A DNA stretch of 64,000 nt, taken from the NCBI GenBank assembly GCA_016703645.1, contig JADJBR010000003.1, positions 46,848 to 110,847 of the forward strand. The letters run 5' to 3'. Below the pieces are notes generated by a model. The model saw only the letters and a list, made by a program, of their open reading frames with translations. It was not told where the DNA came from and did no database searches. Below are positions 3,863 to 64,000 of this stretch, in pieces; position 1 is the stretch's first letter; every line of letters starts with the position of its first letter. The translations under genes and the position numbers were made by a program. The DNA is from Zoogloea sp. Its GTDB lineage: Bacteria; Pseudomonadota; Gammaproteobacteria; Burkholderiales; Rhodocyclaceae.

Positions 3863-4129
3863 ATGCCCATCTACGAGTATCGCTGCGCCGCCTGCGGCCA
3901 TCAAAAAGACCATCTTCAGAAAATGAGCGACCCCGCGCTCACCACCTGCCCCGCATGCGGCGCGGAAAGCTACGCCAAGCAGATCTCTGCCGCCGGCTTC
4001 CAGCTCAAGGGCAGCGGCTGGTATGCCACCGACTTCAAGGGCGGCAGCTCCGCCAGCCCAAGCTCGGAACCGGCCAAGGCCGAAGCACCGGCGGCCACTC
4101 CCTGCGGCGGCAGTTGCGCGTGCCACTGA
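3863..4129 (+). CDS. FmdB-family zinc-ribbon protein
   Basis: Small putative regulatory or metal-binding protein of 88 residues. It opens with the family signature MPIYEYRCAACGH and has a second CPACG pair, giving a four-cysteine zinc ribbon, followed by the typical GFQLKGSGWYATDFK stretch and an Ala/Pro/Ser-rich tail ending CGGSCACH. The ATG at 3863 is chosen because a GGAG sits at 3853-3856 and the family signature begins there, although the frame is open further upstream. It lies between pilD and a DUF502 membrane protein, an arrangement common upstream of aspS in betaproteobacteria. Molecular function is not established. Confidence 0.88.
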   Translation: MPIYEYRCAACGHQKDHLQKMSDPALTTCPACGAESYAKQISAAGFQLKGSGWYATDFKGGSSASPSSEPAKAEAPAATPCGGSCACH

Positions 4130-57522: not shown

Positions 57523-57918
57523 CTAAGGCTTGCCAAAGCCCTCCAGCTCCCGCGCGCGAGCCGCGGTCACCGCCAGGAAACAGTGATTGGCCTCCACCCG
57601 GGCCATCGAGCCACCCTCCGGGTCGGCATAAAAGCGACAGTTGGCCTCACGAAACTTGAGCCACAGCCGCTGCACCCCCTGCAGCTCATCCCGCCGCGCC
57701 ACCGGCAGATCCGCCATCACCGCCTTGTAGGCCTTGTTCAAGCGCACGTCCTGGCGCTTCACCTCCGCGTCAATGCACTCGACCATGCTCTGGGTCACCC
57801 CACCCGCCTTGTCCATGCAGGTCGAAAACGAACGGGAAAAGCCGCCGTCATCCGCCTTCACACCAATTGCCGCCCCAATCAAAACCAGCCCCACCATCCA
57901 CGCCCTGCGCCTTCTCAC
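57523..57918 (-). CDS. LprI-like (DUF1311) exported protein
   Basis: Small exported protein of 131 residues of the lysozyme-inhibitor LprI N-terminal domain type. The GTG at 57918 is chosen: an AGGGAGA lies just upstream and it yields a signal peptide (VRRRRAWMVGLVLIGAAIGVKA). The mature part has conserved features STCMDKAGGVTQSMVECIDA, LNKAYKAVM and LWLKFREANCRFYADPEGG with paired cysteines. Inhibition of lysozyme is known only for some relatives. Confidence 0.8.
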   Translation of the reverse strand: MRRRRAWMVGLVLIGAAIGVKADDGGFSRSFSTCMDKAGGVTQSMVECIDAEVKRQDVRLNKAYKAVMADLPVARRDELQGVQRLWLKFREANCRFYADPEGGSMARVEANHCFLAVTAARARELEGFGKP

Positions 57919-57958
57919 ATTGCTCTCCCTTTGAAAAAGCCCGGAGCGACAAGCCAGC

Positions 57959-58279
57959 TCATGGCGACACCCCGCGGCCCCGCCAGCGTACCAGCCCCAG
58001 GGCAACCACCCACGCCAGCCCCAGCCAGAAGGCCGCAATGAAGCACCAGCCGAAAGCCGTTGGCGCACACCACCCCCAACCACAGGCCCCGTCATTCACC
58101 AGCAAACCCGGCACCCCAAGGGTGTGAAAGAGATAGACCGACAGATAAGGCAGCGCCACCAGCACCCCGACGGGGCTATCGAGATAGGACGGCCAGAGAA
58201 AGGCGGGTGACAGAACGAGGAGATAGGCGCCGACGAGGAAGGCGAAGACGGCGATGGGGCGGCGGAAGTGATGGGTCAC
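57959..58279 (-). CDS. Hypothetical membrane protein
   Basis: Small 106-residue protein with about three hydrophobic segments (residues ~9-27, ~36-57 and ~75-97). It ends in LVRWRGRGVSP and has no recognised domain. It lies 40 bases upstream of the LprI-like gene on the same strand, so the two may form an operon. The start at 58279 is the first ATG; no function can be proposed. Confidence 0.5.
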   Translation of the reverse strand: MTHHFRRPIAVFAFLVGAYLLVLSPAFLWPSYLDSPVGVLVALPYLSVYLFHTLGVPGLLVNDGACGWGWCAPTAFGWCFIAAFWLGLAWVVALGLVRWRGRGVSP

Positions 58280-58406: not shown

Positions 58407-58997
58407 TCAGCCCACACGACGGCCCTCGGCAAAGGCCAGCTTCTTGGCCTCCGCAGGGCTGAGACGTTCCCGCATCAAACCATACAGTTCCGCCGCTTTG
58501 GCGTAGTCACCTTGACGAAAAGCGCTCTCGGCTTGCGGTCGAATCTGCTCCGCGCGGACATCGAGCGAGTATTCCTGCAACCACTGCTCGCGCCGCTCGG
58601 AGACAATGGCCAGAAACTGCGGATCACCACTCAGTACCGCCGCTCCGTAGCGCTGAACCATCACGCTCAAATCTTCCAAGCCAGTTGCAACACTCTCCGG
58701 GGATGTAGCGGCTCGCAAACGGTAGGTCTTTGCCAACTCAGGATCAGTGACGCGCATGAAATCTGAGAGCGAATAGCGGATGCCGGCAACCGTGAATCCA
58801 CACCCAATTTCATAGGACTGCCGTCCGTGATGGACATCGACCCCAATACCATCTTTACGGTATCGAACCAGTGTCGGCAGCGCCTCGACCTCGGAGAAGC
58901 CCGCACTCATGAGAAAGGAGAAGGCTTCACGCACCCGAGGTATGAAGTGAAGCTGGGAGCGATCAGTCAGGTCTAGTTTATTCAAATGCTCATTCAT
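58407..58997 (-). CDS. Candidate immunity protein of the CdiA-type toxin
   Basis: Protein of 196 residues with no signal peptide, starting MNEHLNKLDLTDRSQ. Its start overlaps the stop of the preceding toxin-domain frame (ATGA), the hallmark arrangement of a contact-dependent-inhibition toxin and its immunity gene. No known immunity family was recognised, and its sequence carries no obvious enzyme motif; the C-terminal part is helical and charged. The position is the main evidence. The gap 58280-58406 toward the next gene holds nothing recognised. Confidence 0.62.
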   Translation of the reverse strand: MNEHLNKLDLTDRSQLHFIPRVREAFSFLMSAGFSEVEALPTLVRYRKDGIGVDVHHGRQSYEIGCGFTVAGIRYSLSDFMRVTDPELAKTYRLRAATSPESVATGLEDLSVMVQRYGAAVLSGDPQFLAIVSERREQWLQEYSLDVRAEQIRPQAESAFRQGDYAKAAELYGLMRERLSPAEAKKLAFAEGRRVG

Positions 58998-60334
58998 GGC
59001 TTTGGGGGCATCCAGTATTTGGTCTGAGCATCAAAGCTCCAACCGTGACTCTTTAGCAAGTTGCGTTCTGCATTTAGGAATATACCTTGCACATCTCCAT
59101 ACGACGCATCACGAATAGGCCGACCATATCGCATCTCCTCTCGCAATACACCGGCATTTTGATACCAATTAGCCTTTATATCATTGAGATATGGCAGCCG
59201 ATCAAGGAGCGAAATCTCGCCGGGGGCAAGCGACTGCAAATCTTTGACTCGACCGATGACAGTCGTTCTCTCTGCGCCCCCCGTCGCCACCAGCCCCAAG
59301 GCACTGACCGTCTCCTCGGCCCCCCCAACTGCTTTGGTCACAGCCCCGAACAGCAGCCCACCGCCCTTGATGAGCGCCGAGCCGAGCAGTCCGGCACCGT
59401 CGATCAGTACAAACTCGGCCATGCCTTGCCCGACGGCATTCTGCCACGTGTTGCCGGCCCGCTCCGGTGCCTTCAGTTGTGGCGTATCGGCAGGCACCGC
59501 CGACACGACACGACCTTGGCTATCGTAGAAAAGTTGGTAGTTCCGCGGGAGTGCATAGACCTTGCCATCAGCTCCCACGACGACTTGGTTCCCCGCAGCC
59601 CGCGCCTCGTTGACCGCCGTTATGCATCCTTCGCCACCCGCGCACGCACTGGCCAGGTTTTGATCGCGTTGCGCCGAGAGCTTGAGCAGATTCCTTAGCT
59701 CCGTACACGCTTGCGAATCACCTTTGGCGCAACCGGCTGATGCCGCGTCGTAACGCTCCTTCTCGGACAAGGCCCACGGTGAAGGGCGAAGATGGTTCAG
59801 CCAGTTGTTCTGCGCCGCATTCCCAGCAGCGCTTGCGCCAACCTGCGCATCGCCCCCCACCAGGGTGGCCGCCAGGGCGCCGAAGAGGCGGGCGACGTCC
59901 ACGGTCTTGCTGGCCTGGGTGGCGCTGACGGGTTCGCGGTTGCCGCCGAACCATTCGGCCGCCAGTTCGCCGGCCAGACCGCCGATGGCGCCGGCGCCGC
60001 AGTCGCCGCCTTTGGCTGCGCCCAGGGCACAGCCGACGACGAGGTGGCCCATGCGGTTGCTGAAGCCCTCCAGGTCGCCCACGCTGTTGGCGGCGCTGGC
60101 GCCGGCAGCGTCGATGACGCTGGTGGTGATGGCTTGGGCGAGTTTGTCGCCCAGGTCGCCACCGTTGACTGCAGTGTCGATCACTGCGCTGGTGGCATTG
60201 TTGATGATGTTCTTGCCGATCTGCGCGACCAGGTCGGATTTGCCGCTGACCTCCGCCAGTGTGACAAGCTTACCGTCGGCATTGGGGACACTGATGCTGC
60301 CGGCCAGTGCGTTCAGGGCGCCAGCGGTGAGCAT
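58994..60334 (-). CDS. CdiA/FHA C-terminal fragment with toxin domain
   Basis: Open frame encoding the C-terminal ~446 residues of a filamentous-haemagglutinin/CdiA-type toxin. It has the conserved region around NLGQTLSDLGSDETIRNVAT just upstream of the first ATG (the frame is open to at least 60408), the NNWLNHLRP pretoxin-like stretch, and a final domain ending GRPIRDAS...AERNLLKSHGW. The toxin activity is not identifiable. The frame is disconnected from the upstream stick fragment at 60412, apparently by a deletion. ATG at 60334 is only the first Met codon in frame; whether it is translated alone is unknown. Confidence 0.72.
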   Translation of the reverse strand: MLTAGALNALAGSISVPNADGKLVTLAEVSGKSDLVAQIGKNIINNATSAVIDTAVNGGDLGDKLAQAITTSVIDAAGASAANSVGDLEGFSNRMGHLVVGCALGAAKGGDCGAGAIGGLAGELAAEWFGGNREPVSATQASKTVDVARLFGALAATLVGGDAQVGASAAGNAAQNNWLNHLRPSPWALSEKERYDAASAGCAKGDSQACTELRNLLKLSAQRDQNLASACAGGEGCITAVNEARAAGNQVVVGADGKVYALPRNYQLFYDSQGRVVSAVPADTPQLKAPERAGNTWQNAVGQGMAEFVLIDGAGLLGSALIKGGGLLFGAVTKAVGGAEETVSALGLVATGGAERTTVIGRVKDLQSLAPGEISLLDRLPYLNDIKANWYQNAGVLREEMRYGRPIRDASYGDVQGIFLNAERNLLKSHGWSFDAQTKYWMPPKP

Positions 60335-60411
60335 GGCGGTGGCGACGTTACGGATGGTTTCGTCGCTCCCCAGATCGCTGAGAGTTTGGCCGAGATTGCC
60401 CTTATTATTGA

Positions 60412-63400
60412 TTAGTCCACGCCAGGGCGGTCGGCCAGTTGCAGCATCCAGGCCTGTCCGGGTTGTGCGGCCTGCTTTTCGAGTTGGGTCTTGAAGTTGC
60501 CTTCGGGGAGCTGGGCAATGATCTTCTGGGCCTGGAATGTGACGGGCCCCTGGATGTTGACGAGGGTCAGCGTCTCGGTGCTTTCGCCCTGACCGGACTG
60601 GCTTTGCCAGACAAGGGATTTCTTGTTGACGGTGCGGCTGGTGTCGAGACGGCTCTTGGCGCCTTCGAGGATCAGGGTGGCGTCGGCCTGGGCCTTGTCG
60701 CCGACGCCCACTTCGAGGGTGGTCTGGGCGGCAGCGATGCGGGTGCCCTGCAACAGGGTGTCGCCGCCGCTTTGGGTGGTGAGCTCGCCTGCGCTCTGCA
60801 GTTGGGTGACCTGGGCCTCCTCGCTGGTGCGGCTGTCGCGGGTTTCCGTCTTGGTGCTGCCCGAGGGGAACATGAACCCGGGGGCAAAGAGATTGGCACC
60901 CAGAGAACTTCGGGTGACCTTCTTGCGATCCATGACGCTGTGCACGTCCTGCACGGCATAGGCGTGCAGCTCGCCACCGGCGGACAGGCTGGCTTCGCCG
61001 CTGGCATTGAGACGGGCGCCATAGAGGTCCAGGTCGCCGCCCGACTGGAGCTGGATGTCCTGGGCGTCGATGCGCGTCGTGGCTGCTTGCAGGCTTTGTT
61101 CGGTGTGCTCGGTGGTGGTGGTCTTCTTGCTCAGCCAGTTGCCACTTTTCTTGACCGTGAGCGTGTGCTCCGCGGCGGCATCGGTGGCGGCCGTGAGAGC
61201 GAGGGTTTCCCGCGCAACGAGGGTGGCTTTGCCGGGGGTGATGAGCGTGGCGGCTTCGAGGGTGAGGTTGCGGCCAGCCAGGTTGATGGCCTCGCCGCTC
61301 AGCCCATTGCGCGCGCTTTCATCGCGGCTGCGCTCGACGATGGTGGTGCCCGCGCGGTTGCGTGAGACGTAGTCCTCGGCGTTGCGCCCGGCGGCGAAGG
61401 TGATGTCGCCCTCGGCAGCGAGGGTGAGTGTGCGGGCGGCGTCGAGCTGGACACCGCTGCCGCGGATGCTGCCCGCGGTGCTCTCGGCGTCGGCAGGCTT
61501 GCCGGTGGCGGTGATCTCAAGGGTGCCGCCACTTTGAATGGCACTACCCACATGGCGGCCCCTGGTGTCCAGGGAGAGGGCCGTGGCGCCGACGTTGCGG
61601 GCCTCCTGGCGGCTCTCCAGGGTGAGGCCATCGAGGACGACGCTGTCGCCGGCAAGTCGGGTATCGCCGCCGCTGTGGACGCGCTGGCCGCCGAGGATGA
61701 GGCTGCCGGTGGCCTGGAGCGTGACGGGGCCGCCGGCATCCATCTGCCCGCCAACGGCGGTGTCGGTGTGGCGCAGTTCGAGGCGCTCTCCGTTCGTGGT
61801 GGGCAGCCCCGGCAGGATGGCAGCGCCTTCAACCTGGGTGGAGAGGCGCCGTTCGGTGCGGGTGCTGTCCACAACGGCGGCAAGGGCGAGGTGCCCGCCT
61901 GCGACGATGCGGAGGTCTTGGCCGGACTTGACCTGAGTACCAACAATGACCGTACTGCCACCGCTTTCGAGATCGAGCTTGCCACCGGCTTCCAGCAGCG
62001 ATGCCTGGTGGCGGATCTGGCGGTCGATCTGGGTGTTGACGATGCTGCCGCTGGCCGTGAGGCCGGTGGTTTCGGTTTCGCCGTTGTTGAGGGTGTAGCT
62101 GCGCTGATTGCTCACCGTGTCGATGCGCTGCCGGCTGTTCTCAAGGGCGAGGGCCTGGATCTCGATGTTGCCGCTCACCCGACCGGTGAGTGCGCCGACC
62201 GCGGTAAGGTCGGCGCCGATGACGAACAGATCCTTGCCGACATTGAGCGTCAGATCGCCCGTGCGGGCGACGATGCCGGCGCGCAGGTCGGCGCTCTGGG
62301 TGACGGTGCTGTCGCTGCGGGTGGTGACAGTGGTACCGAAGAAACTGTCTTCCTCGCTACGGCTGACCGTCGTGGTCTCCTTGCGGTCGACGGCGTAGAG
62401 CGTGCGGTTGTAGACGTTGCCCGCCACGTCCAGGGCCAGGCTGTCGGCTTCGATGCGGCCTGAGTCGTTGATGAGGTCGCCGCCCACGGCGAAGGTGGCG
62501 TCCTTGTCGATGAGGATGCGGCCCCGGGTGTTGTCCAGGGTTCCGCCCAGAGCGAGCACAAGGCCGCCCGCCTGATGCGGCCATTGCGGTTGTCCAGGCT
62601 CGCCCCGAACAGCCCCAGGGCGCCGCCGGCCTTGATGGAGGCGCCGAAATTGTCGATGCCCCCTTCGGCCTGGATCAGCAGGCGGTCAGTGACTTCGAAC
62701 GCGCTCCGGTTGGTGAAGCGGCCCGAGAGCAGGAGGTCCAGGTTGTCGGCCTTGAGGGTACCGGGCGCAGCGGAGAACGCACTCCAGTCGGGAAAGGCCA
62801 GGCTGTAGCGGGCGGCCTCGTCGGCGGGGAGGGTATTCCCGGGGTCGCCGGCGCCTTCAGCGGGGACTCCGCGCCGCCGCCCGCGAGAGGGGCTGTGGCC
62901 GGGTCGATGGCGACCGCGGGGCCGCCAGATTGCCCGGGGCGGAGTGGCCTGACCCGGGTTTGCCGTACCCGGGGCCGTGGGGAGGACGGCGCCTGGCCGT
63001 ACTGCCGGCCACGAGGCTGTCGGACACCTGAGCACGCTGCCGCCCGGGAGCGGCGTGGCCGTCGTTCCGGGCAGCGGGTGTGGTCGGGGCCGGTGGGCGA
63101 AGCCGCCATGGGCGCCGTCGCGCCAACACCCCGCACGCCGGCAAGTTGCACCACACCGCCCGCACCTGGCGCGCCACCCGGCGCATTCACCGACCCCGGA
63201 GGCCCCGGGGGTCGTTGCTGCCACCCGGTTGCGGCGGGACGCCCGAGCGCCTGCTGCGCGGCCGTGGGTCGACACCTGCGCCCAGGGTGAGATCGACGCC
63301 CGACAGACTGAGATCAGCCGCCACGATGGTGCCAGCGTCAGGGCTCGTCAGCGTGACGGAGGAGGCACCACCGCGTGCGTCCAGGCGGGCCAGACTCAGG

Positions 63401-64000
63401 GCCGCCGTATCTTCGACTTCACCCGCGGCGTTGGTCCAGCGGACAGTCTGGGCGAGGTGCTCGGCGCTGTAGGGTAGATGCCGGCAACCCGGGCGTCCGA
63501 CGCCACATTGCGGAGACTGCCCTGAAAAAAGCCATTGACCACGAACCGGGCGCGGCTTGCCACATCGGTGTGGTGATCCACGTAGGCCCCGGGCAATGCC
63601 GGCAAGCCGAGCAGCAGGTAGCTGCCACCGGTCAGATCGGGATCTTTCGGCCCGCGTCCGGCCCCGGTCGCGAGTGTTGACATTGCTGGCGTTGCCGCCC
63701 AGGAGCACCTGCCCGGTGTTCACCAGGGTGCCACTCCAGATCGTGTCCGCGGCGGGCTGACCCAGGTTTCGCCAAGAAGTCGACCCTGATTCCGGCCACA
63801 TCGAGACGCAGGGCGCCGAAGGCCACGAGGGGGTGCTGGTCGGACGGAAGACGAGGGAGGGCACTCTCCAGCCGGGCGTCGCCCGGGAGGCCACGGTGCC
63901 GGCATTGGCGTAGCCGGCGGCCTTGATGTGGAGCACGGCATCGGCCAGCACGGTGCCCGTGCCGGCATTGCGGAAAGTGCCATCTCCGCGTCGATGGAGA
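60412..64000 (-). pseudogene. Decayed CdiA/filamentous haemagglutinin stick gene (5' end outside window)
   Basis: The minus strand carries FHA-type repeats throughout. The longest intact part (60412-62559) is a repetitive haemagglutinin stick with LALGGTLDNTRGRILIDKD, LTLNVGKDLFVIGADL, and ends LADRPGVD and a stop. Upstream the same protein continues in changed frames: LLSGRFTNRSAFEVTDRLL (to about 62570), then others near 63200 and 63400-63950 with LADAVLHIKAAGYANAGTVA and LVNTGQVLLGGNASNVNTRD. At least five frame changes are needed. A single missing base near 62568 would rejoin the first two pieces. The window edge cuts the gene. Confidence 0.75.

Follow-up and report, generated by a model that had tools for sequence, protein, structure and literature searches.

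An apparently broken cdiA stick gene with a toxin-immunity end in Zoogloea sp.: most likely an ordinary cdiBAI locus at a badly assembled contig end

The closest described relatives of the locus analysed here are the CDI systems (CdiB/CdiA/CdiI, type Vb), the orphan cdiA-CT/cdiI modules and the Rhs toxins with C-terminal cassettes. According to PMC3150448, orphan modules often occur behind cdiA, and orphan immunity genes are able to stay functional. The locus shares with CDI a CdiB with POTRA and ShlB domains, a TPS domain, FHA repeats, a DUF637 pre-toxin region, an exchangeable C-terminus and a downstream immunity gene. In contrast to CDI systems with PT-VENN, its toxin frame has no PT-VENN match at E<=1, and the VENN motif is absent from the translation. 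The orphan modules, as described in PMC3150448, resemble the stickless pair that one of our contigs would suggest if taken alone, and also the immunity genes without a full toxin in two relatives (G022 and G017). Unlike such displaced extras, the pair in the analysed genome (G000) lies directly behind the genome's only stick of this kind. The Rhs toxins have the same toxin domain on proteins with RHS repeats, whereas the delivery protein of G000 is a two-partner FHA stick.

The window, which is the whole stretch of 64,000 nucleotides analysed, corresponds to G000:C3:46848-110847. Contig C3 has 110847 bases, and window base 64000 is its end. The features of the locus are as follows; C10 is a second contig of the same assembly, and G004 is a further relative.

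58407..58997, minus strand: putative immunity gene (CdiI-like), 196 aa (frame translation, homologues, model)
58994..59276, minus strand: putative exchangeable toxin domain comprising roughly the final 90 residues of CdiA (G004 homology boundary, 33 loci, alignment, model)
59277..60411, minus strand: conserved pre-toxin region with DUF637, its start cut off, and DUF6862 (Pfam PF04830, PF21726)
60411..60412, no strand: gap junction, where 202 bp of C10 and G022 are absent from C3 (alignments)
60412..62559, minus strand: stick segment with Fil_haemagg_2 repeats (frame and Pfam)
62450..64000, minus strand: error-bearing contig end, with the stick in shifted frames 62250-63275 and 63187-63999 (all 21 polarised small indels are those of C3)
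58643..64000, no strand: twice-assembled stretch, equivalent to G000:C10:1-5576 at 95.7-97% identity apart from the 202-bp segment (DNA comparison)

The stick frame (60412-62559, minus strand, 715 aa) has the C-terminal end ...LADRPGVD. The toxin frame (58994-60334, minus strand, 446 aa) is open already from 60411 as LINNKGNLGQ, and its stop and the start of the 196-residue gene share the sequence ATGA. Frame translation places all three frames and the overlap exactly where an earlier note on this DNA had put them. Pfam matches are Fil_haemagg_2 in the stick frame (1.2e-27), and DUF637 (2.5e-16, from profile position 44 at the first ATG) and DUF6862 (1.4e-11) in the toxin frame. Three things escaped the earlier note: that the contig ends at 64000, that the stick has at least two more frame changes (62.5-64 kb), and that the locus occurs again on C10. 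Downstream of the cassette lies an LprI-family gene (57523-58095, 2.2e-22), which adjoins the immunity gene of G022 too.

A whole-genome DNA search with the stretch found two places only, on C3 and C10. Window positions 58643-64000 align, in the same orientation and at 95.7% and 97.0% identity, with C10:1-5576; the match includes the last base of C3 and the first base of C10. Elsewhere in the genome nothing matches, and the stick adjoins on both contigs, which rejects the pair as a displaced orphan module.

The small differences between the two copies were polarised in a three-way alignment of C3, C10 and G022; the part covered by G022 contains 59 small indels, and 15 further ones at 58.6-59.8 kb fall outside this set. 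Every one of the 38 indels at 59.8-62.45 kb is found in C10 only, and every one of the 21 beyond 62.45 kb in C3 only. In the clean part of C3 the sole C3-peculiar indel is the 202-bp gap, and C10 beyond about position 3980 aligns to G022 for about 4.2 kb without opening an indel. Substitutions in which C10 is the odd sequence are distributed over codon positions 1/2/3 as 22/24/11, with no third-position excess, whereas the true divergence of G022 is distributed as 35/20/129, with 70% (129/184) at the third position. The complementary indels and the codon-position pattern together indicate an error-rich end on each contig, with both contigs covering one locus. The stick frame breaks at 62.5-64 kb are accordingly sequencing errors, because the polarised indels there all belong to C3. 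Decay of cdiA in the lineage by several frameshifts and a deletion could be suspected from the several frame breaks of C3 taken alone, but no polarised small indel is shared by C3 and C10. This mutual exclusion rules out pseudogene decay as the source of the polarised small indels, and an old pseudogene is a most improbable account of the locus as a whole.

The one large difference between the copies is the 202 bp that C10 carries, and C3 lacks, at window position 60411/60412. In a comparison of eight relatives, three (G051, G084, G012) gave no alignment on both sides of the junction. All five alignable relatives of the same genus have extra bases there (G022 202, G010 223, G017 226, G009 247 and G004 295), and residues between RPGVD and LINNKG are visible in the translations of G017 and G004. 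The DUF637 profile is matched from position 17 in C3 and from position 3 in C10. The earlier note had described a segment between these two sequences in related proteins, and C10 and all five alignable relatives, with 202-295 bp, bear this out. It had also proposed that an out-of-frame deletion severed the toxin from its stick: the segment is indeed missing from C3 relative to the relatives, but an evolutionary cut is not supported, in view of C10, which has the segment, and of the error-filled contig ends and the gaps of 90 and 277 bp in other end overlaps described below. Because a second copy in the same assembly has the segment, the gap is most likely an assembly fault.

The segment itself appears cleaner than the raw sequence around it. 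In C10 it has no indels against G022, and in 107 columns invariant among four relatives it shows 4 substitutions and no indels, where a clean stretch would be expected to show 3.4 and 0.1 and a raw stretch 5.8 and 2.2. From these columns taken by themselves, the chance of a raw segment without any indel is P=0.108; elsewhere in the raw zone of C10, 0.9% of 202-bp windows, which overlap and are not independent, are without indel columns. This suggests that reads holding the segment corrected C10 there.

The clean part of C3 has 8 substitutions in which C3 is the odd sequence, against 1.3-2.0 expected by chance; six of the eight are at codon position 3, and five lie within 240 bp. Some of them adjoin indels and may be alignment noise, and the excess hints at an origin of C3 and C10 from slightly different cells. 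These data bear on a real out-of-frame deletion carried by some of the cells; such a cheater-like haplotype would keep immunity, lose toxin display and live mixed with intact cells. It would account for a gap situated in an otherwise clean zone of C3, and for an excess of C3-specific differences that are mostly at third positions. It is disfavoured by the suggestive signs of read correction in the C10 segment, by a junction direct repeat of 2 bp and no longer, and by its occurrence in no independent assembly. We consider such a haplotype possible but doubtful.

Other contig ends of the assembly served as a control. The comparison included 18 end stretches of all 10 contigs, with C2 taken without its last 585 bases and the left ends of C1, C3, C6 and C8 represented by only 6 kb each. 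End-to-end overlaps were found for C3/C10, C4/C5, C9/C10 and C7/C8. The C7/C8 overlap is an rRNA operon, therefore an ordinary repeat and not a control; the end of C8 pairs with an internal part of C9, not with its end, and the start of C7 is a repeat common to C9 and C10. The gap control thus consists of two non-ribosomal overlaps only, and both are gapped, C4/C5 by 277 bp with an additional local duplication and C9/C10 by 90 bp, which also speaks against the deletion haplotype. The C4/C5 and C9/C10 end overlaps (L113, L114, L126, L130) have 93-98% identity. In six non-ribosomal stretches third codon positions account for 31-40% of mismatches, as counted in mechanically picked frames of at least 150 codons, versus 70% for true divergence. 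Genes near the contig ends of assembly G000 should be read with caution.

The end-to-start similarity of C3 and C10 would also be predicted if the genome contained the cdiA 3' end twice in tandem, intact as in C10 and deleted as in C3, with the repeat breaking the assembly. Such an arrangement has precedents in the orphan modules behind cdiA mentioned above and in the displaced module of G004. However, the differences between C3 and C10 are error-like and not evolutionary, their clean and dirty zones are exactly complementary, and each contig has one copy only, so that tandem copies are quite improbable.

Upstream parts of the locus are found on C10. The region C10:3970-12498 is a frame of 2842 codons with a TPS secretion domain (1.5e-36), and its start is overlapped by a CdiB gene at C10:12495-14195 with POTRA domains and a ShlB match (1.8e-60). 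The cdiA frame of G000 is broken in C3 and C10 at different places by error-like indels. The check for an uninterrupted gene in close relatives, suggested in the earlier note, has a clear outcome in G004, where the cdiA frame is open over 4140 codons and carries another toxin and a displaced module. Just upstream of CdiB lies a second TPS-domain protein of 681 aa (G000:C10, L030:14179-16224), therefore the CdiB transporter may serve two TPS partners.

The DNA homology between the window and G004 (86.8%) stops at window position 59277 and resumes at 58266. The intervening stretch of about 1 kb, with the toxin domain and the immunity gene, is evidently an exchanged cassette, because the homology breaks off and returns at these points. 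The displaced CdiA-CT module of G004 (L031:8916-10958) is 680 codons long and begins at an ATG of its own; its short initial part leads straight into a DUF637-like copy and another toxin domain.

When the toxin alignment was used to scan GTDB genome contigs, 33 loci came out of 83 pattern matches. By their titles they belong to Pseudomonadota, Campylobacteraceae, Verrucomicrobia, Spirochaetales, Clostridia, Bacteroidetes and others. An immunity homologue is located directly downstream on the same strand in 25 of them, and none was detected downstream in the other 8; without the seed loci L050, L059 and L075, which are among the 33, the linkage is 22/30. This linkage agrees with the earlier assignment of the pair as the toxin end of a CdiA-type protein and its immunity gene. 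The 32 carriers scanned, over at most the last 700 residues each and with the 47-aa remnant L075 set aside, have RHS repeats in eight cases, PT-HINT in two and DUF637 in one. In G084 (L037:4011-8672) the order is an RHS protein, a frame of 85 aa and a short toxin cassette whose immunity partner belongs to the same family. Within the family of G000, the toxin model matches in 6 of 296 genomes, all six of which also have an immunity match.

A search of 30 members of the toxin domain against Pfam and NCBIfam yielded no family above chance, so the family search that the earlier note had recommended for the toxin end came back empty, and the PDB contained no convincing sequence match; in these respects the domain is unlike those of known CDI toxins. 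Polar residues invariant in the 30-row alignment are N46, R51, D62, E76 and R77, and the structure is predicted with pLDDT 85. From the base rate of CdiA toxins, a cytosolic nuclease is our guess, at slightly less than even odds.

The immunity protein is predicted with pLDDT 93.7 as a five-stranded alpha/beta N-terminal part followed by TPR-like C-terminal helices at 126-195. A TPR in the window protein itself is weak (TPR_2, E 0.17), and TPR_BSK1_C is found in 7 of 24 immunity homologues (best 9e-6). The immunity model matches in 9 of the 296 genomes; the three matches unaccompanied by a toxin match (G062, G266, G339) are partial. The model missed the G022 gene, which is nevertheless present on closer look: it is 86% identical to the window gene and adjoins the LprI gene and the end of a PEP-CTERM-type gene, as in the window. 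The two contig stretches of G022 examined have no toxin match, and the contig ends soon after the immunity gene. In G017, of the same genus, 47 codons of the toxin survive as a remnant, and the immunity homologue can be aligned over 134 residues. The dN/dS of the immunity gene is 0.20 for the window and G022, 0.21 for the window and G017, and 0.16 for G022 and G017. It thus seems to be under purifying selection in these two relatives, where the toxin is not found or is a remnant only, a range (0.16-0.21) that also favours the deletion haplotype. The earlier idea that selection maintained immunity after loss of the toxin fits G022 and G017 and is conjectural for G000 itself.

Overall, an ordinary cdiBAI locus, with the gap and the frame breaks arising from assembly and sequencing, is the reading we prefer, with a probability of roughly 0.6. 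CdiB would export CdiA, the FHA-type stick would display the C-terminal toxin to neighbouring cells, and the 196-aa protein would protect sister cells by neutralising the toxin. Sequencing errors account for the frame breaks at 62.5-64 kb, and the 202-bp gap would be an assembly fault too. From sequence comparison we infer that cdiA is intact in the organism, together with secretion, toxicity and protection. A broader proposal, in which an unmodelled polymorphic toxin-immunity family on CdiA and Rhs carriers of several phyla is combined with a live deletion haplotype that places immune non-producers beside producers, appears unlikely.

The locus is a warning that evolutionary decay should not be read from long repetitive genes at contig ends. 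C3 and C10 hold complementary error-rich ends of one locus, and the broken stick should not be taken as biology from contigs alone. For the biology of the family, the locus draws attention to a small toxin domain, linked to an immunity partner, for which the Pfam and NCBIfam libraries searched offered no model, and to relatives in which the immunity part seems to be kept under selection without the full toxin.
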